The notes beneath the pieces were generated by a model that saw nothing but the letters and a program-made list of their open reading frames with translations, did not search any database and was not told the DNA's origin. Positions 8,356 to 11,704 of a DNA stretch of 34,247 nucleotides are shown here, one piece after another. The stretch is taken from positions 1 through 34,247 of the forward strand of contig CAMKNF010000002.1 of NCBI GenBank assembly GCA_946414115.1. The letters run 5' to 3'. A program made the translations under genes and the position numbers. This DNA is from an uncultured Ruminococcus sp. (lineage in GTDB: Bacteria > Bacillota > Clostridia > Oscillospirales > Acutalibacteraceae). Within the stretch, counting starts at the first letter, position 1. Every line of letters starts with the position of its first letter.

Positions 8356-8946
8356 TCACTCCATATACCTTACAAGGGAAATTACCTTGCCGAGCAATAC
8401 AACCTCGTCAACTATAATCGGCTCAAAGCTGTCGTTTTCGGGTTGTAGGCGGAAATGACCGTTTTCCTTGTAAAATCTCTTTACGGTTGCTTCGTCACCG
8501 ACAAGCGCAACTACGATTTCGCCGTTTTCGGCAACGGGGGTGCGGTGGACGATTACAATGTCGTTGTCGAGAATACCTGCGTTTATCATACTTTCGCCCT
8601 GAACACGCAATGCAAAAAGCTCTCTGCCACGCTTAAGGCTTTCGGGAACGGGCACGTAGCATTCGATGTCCTCAACGGCAAGAATCGGGTAGCCTGCGGC
8701 AACTCGTCCGAGCACGGGAACTCCTGCCGACTTTTCCTCTCCGCTGATTTTTATGCATCTGTTTACGCCGTGTTCACGGGTGATTAACCCCTTTTCTTCA
8801 AGTGCCGTAAGATGATGATGAACTGTTGAGGTTGAGCTTAATCCTGTTTCAGTGCATATTTCACGTACAGATGGAACTCTGCCCTCGACAGAGCATTCCT
8901 TGAGATAGTCCAGAATCTTCTGCTGGCTTTTGCTTAAGGGTTTCAT
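8356..8946 (-). CDS. lexA: LexA SOS repressor
   Basis: MKPLSKSQQKILDYL..STSTVHHHLTALEEKGLI HTH, VAAGYP cleavage site, GESMINAGI serine and TVKRF lysine contexts. Start set at 8946; the ORF-track start at 9003 lies upstream of a good promoter. Confidence 0.95.
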   Translation of the reverse strand: MKPLSKSQQKILDYLKECSVEGRVPSVREICTETGLSSTSTVHHHLTALEEKGLITREHGVNRCIKISGEEKSAGVPVLGRVAAGYPILAVEDIECYVPVPESLKRGRELFALRVQGESMINAGILDNDIVIVHRTPVAENGEIVVALVGDEATVKRFYKENGHFRLQPENDSFEPIIVDEVVLLGKVISLVRYME

Positions 8947-8970
8947 AAAATCACGCACCTTTCCGACTAA

Positions 8971-8999
8971 AGTATAACACATAAAAACAGAAAAATCAA
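8971..8999 (-). promoter_or_regulatory. Putative lexA promoter
   Basis: Reverse strand TTGATT (8994-8999) - 17 bp - TATACT (8971-8976). Confidence 0.65.
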
Positions 9000-9113
9000 A
9001 CATTTGTTTTATTTTTTTGAAGATTTTTCAAAATATGACACAAAATAATCTTATGTACATAAAAACGACAAAAATTCTTGCGAAAAACATATAGTTTTCA
9101 AAACAAATTCAAT

Positions 9114-9142
9114 TTGATTTCACACAGTTTTCAAACTAATAT
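9114..9142 (+). promoter_or_regulatory. Putative promoter of candidate small RNA divergent from lexA
   Basis: TTGATT (9114-9119) - 17 bp - TAATAT (9137-9142). Confidence 0.5.
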
Positions 9143-9148
9143 TGTTTA

Positions 9149-9300
9149 ATATAAGCGTACTCAAAAGACGGAACCGCAACCGTCAGAGTATAATTGTTCT
9201 ACCCTCCTCAATACGAACCGACGTAGAGGTTCGTACTTGTACCCCTCATTTTTTAAAGAACAGAAAACGCCAAACCTTCCGTAAGGGTTTGGCGTTTTCA
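9149..9300 (+). ncRNA. Candidate structured small RNA with C-rich (anti-SD-like) motifs
   Basis: Hairpin 1 GUACUC/GAGUAU with inner GACGG/CCGUC (9157-9191); closing helix UUGUUCU/AGAACAG (9194-9200 with 9257-9263) around hairpin UACGAACC/GGUUCGUA (9212-9235); ACCCUCCUC 9201-9209 and UACCCCUC 9240-9247; terminal hairpin 9264-9298. Confidence 0.5.
9264..9298. terminator. Strong intrinsic-terminator-like hairpin, not adjacent to any ORF end
   Basis: aaaacgccaaacc-ttccgtaag-ggtttggcgtttt, 13-bp perfect stem. Confidence 0.75.
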
Positions 9301-9600
9301 TTTTACAGGGTAGCCCCTGAGGGCAAATCGGTCGAGTGCCTCGACAGGCAAATCGAGAAGAAAAGTCGATTTGTTCGGTGAAAATTGTAGCCCGAATTTT
9401 AAATTGATATATAGGTAACGTTTCGGGACGTCAGGGATGCCGTCCCCTACGGTGACACAGGAAACGTTTGTATTTTTCTATCGTGCAGCCACACAGGGCT
9501 GCCCCTACGGTGTGTTATATAACAATCGTTTTATTTATTACGTAGGGGCGACCCTATGTGGTCGCCCGAAACGTTGCCGATATAGCAACATAAAATCAGT
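9301..9600. repeat. Mosaic palindromic intergenic repeat, copy B
   Basis: gtcgagtgcctcgac..gtagcccgaattttaaattgatatataggtaacgtttcgggacgtcagggatgccgtcccctacgg..cagccacacagggctg..gtaggggcgaccctatgtggtcgccc. Confidence 0.85.
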
Positions 9601-9740: not shown

Positions 9741-10013
9741 TTATTGCTCACTGTGCTCAAGTTGCTTTTCACGCAGATACTTGTTCTTTGTTGCTATTCC
9801 GCCACGTATATGACGTTCGCTTTTGTTTATGTCGAGAACTCGTCTTACCTCTCGGTAAAGCGCAGGGTTGAGCGTTTTCAGCCGTTGGCTTACGTCCTTG
9901 TGCACCGTACTTTTGCTGACGCCGAACTTCTTTGCAGTGCTCCTTACGGTAGCTCCGTTTTCTATTATGTACTCGCCCAGCATTGCTGCACGTTCTTCCA
10001 CTATTCCTTTCAC
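9741..10013 (-). CDS. spoIIID: Sporulation transcriptional regulator SpoIIID
   Basis: VRSTAKKFGVSKSTVHKDVSQRL..NPALYREVRRVLDINKSERHIRGGIATKNKY matches the SpoIIID pattern; GTG start with ggaggg RBS. Confidence 0.93.
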   Translation of the reverse strand: MKGIVEERAAMLGEYIIENGATVRSTAKKFGVSKSTVHKDVSQRLKTLNPALYREVRRVLDINKSERHIRGGIATKNKYLREKQLEHSEQ

Positions 10014-10168: not shown

Positions 10169-10197
10169 TTGATTTGTGGTTTGACAAGTGTTATAAT
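10169..10197 (+). promoter_or_regulatory. Putative sigma-A promoter
   Basis: TTGATT - 17 bp - TATAAT, upstream of the ATG at 10220. Confidence 0.6.
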
Positions 10198-10219
10198 TAG
10201 GGTGAAAAGAGGTGGTATT

Positions 10220-11704
10220 ATGAAAAAGTCTGGTAAATTACTTAAAAATTCAATCATTTTTATGCTTACTTTTTTAATGGCGTTTTCGTCAATGACTTTT
10301 GCTGTTTGTAATACCGCTTTTGCTGCCGAGATTGATTGTTCCTATATTACATACAATAAAGAGCTTTACGACAGCAACAAGGAACTGTGTGACAGGCTTG
10401 CCGAGGGTATGACTAATTTCAGCGAGCAGATTTATGTCGGTGATTTTCATATTAAAGACAAGGCGACTATGCGATATATAATCAAGACTGTTATCAGAAA
10501 ACACCCCGAACTGTTTTATGTTGATCCTACTCAATATATGCTTGGCTCGGACGGAACCTATATTGCTGTAATATGCCCGATTTATCTCTATGACACGCAA
10601 ACGGCACAGAAAATGATTGACGATTTTAACGCTGAATGTGATAAGTATCTTGAAAAAATTGACAGCAGCATGACCGAATTTGAAAAGGCGGTTGTATTGC
10701 ACGACGAACTTGTGCTCAACTGCAAATACGTTGACGATAACGATTCACTTTATGTTTCTGCGCACGAGTCTATTGTAAACGGAAACGCAAACTGTCAGGG
10801 ATACGCCGAGGCGTATTCTTATCTGCTGGCACGTGCCGGAGTGCACAGTGAAATTGTTGAATCTTCGGCTATGTATCATCTTTGGAACAAGGTGCGCATA
10901 AACGGTGTGTACTATAACGTTGACCTTACGTGGGACGACCCTATGCCCGACAAAAAAGGCCACGTTTCACACAAGTATTTTCTGCTCAGCGACAGCGCAA
11001 TAAGCAGCGGAAATGACGAGATTTCAGCTCATTACGGCTTTGATTATGCTTATTATAAATCCTACAACGCAAAGTATGACAACTGTCTGTTCCGTGAATT
11101 TGACACACAGTTCTGCTTGGTTGACAACAACTGCTACGTGATTGACAACAAGTATCAGAGCCAATATGAAAGATGTCTGCTTAAATACGACACAAAAACA
11201 GATAAGGCTGAAATTATCAAAAAGTTTGATTTCAGGTGGAAGTCAGGAGCAACAAGCTACTGGAAAGGCGGATATATGAGCCTTGACGAAAACAACGGCT
11301 TGTTGTACTTTAATTCTGCCGATTGCATTTACACTTATGATGTGGCTACAAATACAATGAACGAGTTTGCTTCTGTTGACACTTCTTCGGGCGATTGCTA
11401 CGGATTAAGAATAGCTGACGGCACTTTGTATTCGGCAGTTTCGACAAGCCCGAATGTGGAACTTGTTATGAAGTTTTCGGGTGAGTGTATTAAAAATACG
11501 CTTATTACAATTCCCAATATCGGACAAGGTGATGTAAACTGCGACGGCGTTATTAATATTGTAGATGTTACGGAGATTCAGAAGTATTCCACAGGAGGGG
11601 CAAGCTTTACAGACAAACAGCGTTTAGTCGCAGACTATAACAATGACGGTATTATTAATATTGTTGACGCAACAGAAATTCAAAAATTTATGGTTGGTTC
11701 ATAA
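10220..11704 (+). CDS. Secreted transglutaminase-like protein with C-terminal type I dockerin
   Basis: Signal peptide MKKSGKLLKNSIIFMLTFLMAFSSM; NANCQGYAEAYSYLLARAG..YHLWNKVRINGVYYNVDLTWDD Cys/His/Asp; dockerin GDVNCDGVINIVDVTEIQKY..ADYNNDGIINIVDATEIQKFM. ATG at 10220 follows RBS agaggtgg; the ORF-track start at 10169 overlaps the -35. Confidence 0.88.
   Translation: MKKSGKLLKNSIIFMLTFLMAFSSMTFAVCNTAFAAEIDCSYITYNKELYDSNKELCDRLAEGMTNFSEQIYVGDFHIKDKATMRYIIKTVIRKHPELFYVDPTQYMLGSDGTYIAVICPIYLYDTQTAQKMIDDFNAECDKYLEKIDSSMTEFEKAVVLHDELVLNCKYVDDNDSLYVSAHESIVNGNANCQGYAEAYSYLLARAGVHSEIVESSAMYHLWNKVRINGVYYNVDLTWDDPMPDKKGHVSHKYFLLSDSAISSGNDEISAHYGFDYAYYKSYNAKYDNCLFREFDTQFCLVDNNCYVIDNKYQSQYERCLLKYDTKTDKAEIIKKFDFRWKSGATSYWKGGYMSLDENNGLLYFNSADCIYTYDVATNTMNEFASVDTSSGDCYGLRIADGTLYSAVSTSPNVELVMKFSGECIKNTLITIPNIGQGDVNCDGVINIVDVTEIQKYSTGGASFTDKQRLVADYNNDGIINIVDATEIQKFMVGS

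Follow-up and report, generated by a model that had tools for sequence, protein, structure and literature searches.

We describe a real, highly conserved small RNA (sRNA) gene that adjoins lexA in a Ruminococcus bromii-like gut bacterium, within a stretch of 34,247 nucleotides that is referred to here as the window. On the evidence of its sequence it is a conserved structured non-coding gene and, as far as tested, appears to represent a genuine, previously unannotated sRNA family of a known kind. It probably encodes a trans-acting sRNA of the Ruminococcaceae, activated by a response regulator, co-regulated with htrA, and blocking Shine-Dalgarno (SD) sequences by means of C-rich patches.

Structure and conservation of the sRNA gene

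The initial annotation of this DNA had proposed that an sRNA gene, independent and equipped with a terminator of its own, lies divergent from lexA. All of the parts that it described are present where it had placed them, and both hairpins and the terminator were reproduced by the MFE fold of positions 9149-9305, which is identical to the centroid structure. This region folds at -51.7 kcal/mol, against -27.4 +/- 3.7 for dinucleotide shuffles (z = -6.6), and 0 of 200 shuffles folded as well. Fold, covariation and homologues all support the proposal of an independent gene, whose features are listed in Table 1. The locus is present as a single copy in its own genome, where the sole second match is that of the palindromic terminator with its own complement, and it is therefore not another copy of an intergenic repeat, an outcome that the initial annotation had named as refuting it.

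Table 1. Features of the sRNA locus and of the adjoining lexA promoter (window coordinates)
Feature	Position	Strand	Basis or remark
Predicted sRNA, ~145 nt	9157..9300	+	Fold z, covariation, homologues; start inferred 7 nt downstream of the -10
Predicted activator box of four TTCA units, directly repeated every 11 bp	9097..9140	+	Core TTTCACACAGTTTTCATATT
-10 element TTTAAT	9145..9150	+	Near-invariant in the genus alignment
Hairpin 1, with outer stem GUACUC/GAGUAU and inner stem GACGG/CCGUC	9157..9191	+	Covariation
C-rich motif 1, UUCUACCCUCCUC	9197..9209	+	Contains CCUCCU, the anti-SD core
Hairpin 2, variable stem between the C-rich motifs	9209..9239	+	Covariation
C-rich motif 2, UACCCCUCAUUUU	9240..9252	+	Near-invariant in the genus
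Intrinsic terminator, hairpin 9263-9299 and U-rich tail	9263..9304	+	Both-side changes in 14/16 pairs
lexA, divergent neighbour, likely start codon 8946	8356..9003	-	TIGR00498 above cut-off
LexA-type box AAACATTTGTTT in the lexA promoter	8998..9009	.	135 bp from the sRNA -10

The gene is widespread: by counts that are lower bounds, because the filters were strict, a DNA search matched 44 of 60 genomes of the genus, within the family a covariance model matched 67 of 200 genomes, belonging to 44 of 135 genera, and a second model, applied to 396 genomes of the order, matched 27, of which 24 belong to the same family and 3 to two other families. One of the models, R2, has a poor predicted structure and therefore serves mainly as a sequence model. 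The pattern of two C-rich motifs was found in 101 stretches of named genomes; the 80 of these that were listed are from Ruminococcus or from its relatives within the Clostridia, among them R. bromii YE282 and 5AMG.

The hairpin stems and the C-rich motifs proposed initially are conserved in these relatives: the two motifs are nearly invariant, while the stems covary strongly. In a MAFFT alignment of 26 genus members (44 pairs), standard pairs make up 95.3% of the pair cells and changes on both sides are seen in 26 of the 44 pairs. The number of cells with such changes, 152, compares with 45 +/- 7 in shuffles and with 15-26 when the partners were slid by 1-3 columns. Most of the covariation is carried by the terminator and by hairpin 2, in which all 7 core pairs have changed on both sides and 98.9% of cells are paired. 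Hairpin 1 is paired in 96-99% of cells, with both-side changes in 4 pairs, and its apical loop CCGCA (9174-9178) is invariant across genera in a 32-sequence family alignment. The closing helix that had been drawn around hairpin 2 (9195-9200/9257-9262) does occur in the MFE fold, but it contains no pair changed on both sides and is broken in several relatives.

Among 111 distinct members, 106 share exactly the same motif 1 and the remaining 5 have one extra C. Hairpin 2, in contrast, is missing in many other genera and is an optional insert: in many family members the gap between the motifs is just 5-9 nt, and over the 111 distinct members it measures either 5-9 or 21-35 nt, with every one of the three frames represented. 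The fixation of motif 1, while hairpin 2 varies freely or is missing, argues for selection on the unpaired motifs. For motif 2, ACCCCUCA is retained in most other genera, and in family-level homologues hairpin 1 with its CCGCA loop is followed by UGUUCUACCCUCCUCAAUGUACCCCUCA or a closely similar sequence and finally by a terminator. Fold and alignments thus bear out the idea of two conserved unpaired C-rich motifs flanking hairpin 2.

Promoter and repeat box

TTCA repeats start at 9097, 9108, 9119 and 9130, forming an exact four-repeat match in the window, and the last of them (TTTTCA) starts 17 nt before the -10. Such 11-bp repeats, with the last unit 17 nt from the -10, have the geometry expected of OmpR/PhoB-family activator sites. 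The consensus of 65 genus promoters is TTTCA-N6-(A/T)TTCA-N6-TTTCACACAGTTTTCATATT...TTTAAT, with units at 11-bp spacing, and its -10 aligns with the canonical TATAAT of family-level homologues in other genera. The promoter named in the initial annotation, TTGATT-N17-TAATAT, is literally present but not conserved; the conserved promoter consists of the 11-bp repeats and the TTTAAT listed in Table 1.

A pattern of four units with at most one mismatch gave 87 matches in 40 genus genomes, versus 4 for a reversed control pattern. In the 15 other-genus genomes examined for the corresponding box (TTMA-N7-TTCAYA-N5-TTAACA), perfect matches occur only upstream of the sRNA.

Co-occurrence with htrA and candidate regulators

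Among the genes behind the box other than the sRNA, htrA is the recurrent one. In 19 of 40 genus genomes the repeat box stands ahead of HtrA homologues, at a similar spacing to an AT-rich -10. These htrA loci were mostly located via the box itself; therefore the evidence lies in the recurrence of one orthologous gene, not in the box scores. An independent protein search revealed a clear box at one htrA (G005) and a weaker one at another (G039). In distant genera htrA mostly has a weak box or none. Judged by sequence, the box is common to the sRNA and htrA. Further single matches precede genes for signal peptidase I, lipoprotein-like, PepSY and CotH proteins.

In the genome of the window, a CotH-kinase/dockerin gene (L067:2322-4440, contig C23) stands behind a TTCA repeat box and is a possible further regulon member, and a TTCACA-type box before an iron-type alcohol dehydrogenase-like gene (L068:2525, minus strand, contig C45) is probably due to chance.

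This genome encodes seven OmpR-type regulators. One OmpR-type regulator is present in 31 of 31 genus genomes, and in four of them it is encoded about 3.5-4 kb away from the sRNA. Some promoters of this conserved regulator carry a look-alike site (e.g. GACATACAGTTTTCACATT), but just 5 of 18 score for the box at p <= 0.05, so the statistics are only suggestive. In several genus genomes (L331-L334) a response regulator-histidine kinase (RR-HK) pair is situated about 3.5-4 kb from the sRNA, with the fumarase alpha/beta genes between this pair and lexA; in the genome of the window, the pair is on another small contig (L314, contig C214).

Two further candidates were considered and rejected. The repeats resemble the Pho box of the phosphate (Pho) regulon, but the pstS promoter of the same genome has no such box. 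A CssR-like regulator (RR-HK-HtrA operon) is encoded by other genera and by some members of the genus, yet none was found in the genome of the window. Operons of RR-HK-HtrA type, with a CssRS/CiaRH-like layout, were observed in other Ruminococcaceae genera and not found in the R. bromii subgroup (L284-L293).

Targets and proposed mechanism

The initial annotation had suggested the C-rich motifs as seeds for target prediction. With 416 genes of the same genome, motif 1 gave 77 translation starts at <= -12 kcal/mol versus 35 coding controls and was weakly better than shuffled motifs, whereas motif 2 performed no better at translation starts than its shuffled versions. A perfect 11-nt complement of motif 1 occurs almost nowhere in 40 genomes except opposite the sRNA itself, and a search of the same 40 genomes for long conserved targets with GAGGAGGGTAG returned almost only the complement of the sRNA. 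Thus no long conserved target was found, and pairing would need shorter cores. In a ranking that covered about one quarter of the genome, the best candidate is an ABC-transporter permease-like ORF with a predicted 12-bp match at its RBS (-22.9 kcal/mol; L071).

We infer transcription, the regulator, base pairing and targets as follows. An OmpR/PhoB-type response regulator would bind the 11-bp direct repeats and activate transcription from about position 9157. The same regulator probably activates htrA, which encodes a quality-control protease, and this would place the RNA in a regulon of the envelope or secretion-stress type. The transcript would end at its own terminator, while hairpin 1 and, where present, hairpin 2 would display the single-stranded C-rich patches CUACCCUCCUC and UACCCCUCAU. 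These patches may pair with the SD and start regions of target mRNAs and so block their translation, which, from the anatomy of the RNA and by analogy with the csRNAs and RoxS discussed below, is the most likely mechanism.

Relation to known RNAs

At the gathering threshold, no family of Rfam 15 matched the sRNA in the window, and 20 relatives gave no match save for neighbouring tRNAs; the impression that the RNA belongs to no named family is therefore upheld. Sub-threshold matches to tsr25 and NrrF were discarded, as they lay far below the cut-offs and arose mainly via the terminator hairpin. FsrA of Bacillus subtilis, which is controlled by Fur, is likewise a C-rich sRNA that represses translation; no sequence match between it and the sRNA described here was seen.

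The resemblance to RoxS/RsaE pointed out in the initial annotation holds as a working analogy, given the C-rich unpaired motifs, but not as homology: the covariance model RF01820 gave no match at the gathering threshold, nor up to E = 5 with permissive filters. RoxS/RsaE pairs with SD sequences through its C-rich regions, and its transcription is activated by an OmpR-family two-component system, ResDE/SrrAB (PMC4409812). The sRNA described here similarly has two near-invariant unpaired C-rich motifs with predicted SD pairing, and a promoter with direct repeats of the OmpR-family type. It differs in structure and in its promoter box, and is linked to HtrA rather than to NO/redox genes.

A second parallel is provided by the csRNAs of Streptococcus (ccnA-E, members of the CiaRH regulon), in which stem-loops surround an unpaired region complementary to SD sequences and start codons, and whose promoters carry 11-bp direct repeats of a response regulator with htrA in its regulon (PMC3091779, PMC4507080). 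The RNA from Ruminococcus also exposes unpaired SD-complementary sequence between stem-loops (CCUCCU in motif 1, CCCCUCAU in motif 2), and a regulon shared with htrA may be a further parallel, its box standing before HtrA homologues in 19 of 40 genomes. However, the CiaR box (TTTAAG-N5-TTTAAG) is not found here, the repeats being TTCA(C/T)A-N5, with TTTCA at 11-bp spacing and the core TTTCACACAGTTTTCATATT; the csRNAs are present in several copies per genome and not one; and they come from a different order of bacteria, with no sequence homology to this sRNA seen. The RNA thus appears analogous to both the pneumococcal csRNAs and RoxS/RsaE, unrelated to them in sequence, and a member of neither group. 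The main text of a survey of structured RNAs of the human microbiome mentions neither Ruminococcus nor lexA (PMC8040213), and its list of candidates may include this sRNA.

Alternative readings of the locus

The proximity of lexA had led the initial annotation to consider an SOS link, in which LexA would repress the sRNA from the shared intergenic region and DNA damage would induce it. Of 80 loci in the named set, about 70 do have divergent lexA beside the sRNA, as do 12 of 25 loci from other genera, and 71 of 76 intergenic regions between lexA and the sRNA contain a LexA-type box, AAACATTTGTTT. However, about 50-80 bp separate this box from the lexA start in most cases, its distance from the sRNA promoter and the -10 is variable, and in none of these intergenic regions does it overlap that promoter. 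It belongs to the promoter of lexA itself (135 bp from the sRNA -10 in the window), so SOS control is unsupported; moreover, the RNA is kept where lexA is not nearby (L078, L087, L090, L120, L121, L147, L151). We therefore regard LexA control as improbable. A structured RNA with a terminator at its end might equally be a cis-acting leader or attenuator of a downstream gene, but the downstream genes lie on either strand, at variable distances, and belong to no conserved family; in the window, spoIIID comes next, some 440 bp further on and encoded by the opposite strand. This reading is already largely excluded, and we give it very little credence. Downstream of the sRNA, positions 9310-9580 contain intergenic palindromes (e.g. 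CGTAGGGGCGACCCTATGTGGTCGCCCG) resembling dispersed intergenic repeats, followed by the spoIIID-type sporulation regulator (9741-10013, minus strand; TIGR02844 just above cut-off) and by a secreted protein that resembles transglutaminases and bears a type I dockerin, a possible amylosome-type component (10169-11704, plus strand).

It is also hardly conceivable that the locus is a small-peptide gene (UUG/AUG-UUC-UAC-CCU-CCU-CAA...). A short in-frame reading starts at motif 1 in many members, but the motif spacings are spread over all three frames (60/37/14), which excludes a conserved reading frame. Furthermore, 5 members carry the 1-nt insertion in motif 1, the codons of motif 1 show no synonymous variation, and the covarying stems cross the frame. 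A sponge or protein-titrating RNA, in which the partner of the C-rich patches and the CCGCA loop would be not mRNAs but another sRNA or an RNA-binding protein, has a low but appreciable probability: it would agree with the invariance of the loop across genera and with the failure to find a long conserved mRNA complement in 40 genomes. Against it stand the anti-SD core of motif 1, the preference of this motif for translation starts over coding sequence, and the fact that known C-rich RNAs of similar layout work on mRNAs (PMC4409812, PMC3091779).

Biological significance

A key starch degrader of the human colon belongs to the R. bromii group, from which, to our knowledge, no base-pairing sRNA has been described. 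The RNA reported here, probably trans-acting and SD-blocking, is strongly supported by evolutionary evidence; its promoter box is defined, and the candidates for co-regulation with it form a short list. Its expression, regulator and targets can therefore be tested directly. Tentatively, and with somewhat more doubt than confidence, we suggest that it founds a Ruminococcaceae-wide sRNA family, which would form the RNA arm of an envelope-stress two-component regulon and have arisen convergently to the streptococcal CiaR-csRNA-HtrA circuit; in this family a modular hairpin would have been inserted or removed between two fixed targeting motifs. The locus also suggests that the combination of an HtrA protease and an SD-mimicking sRNA under one stress regulator may have originated more than once in the Firmicutes.
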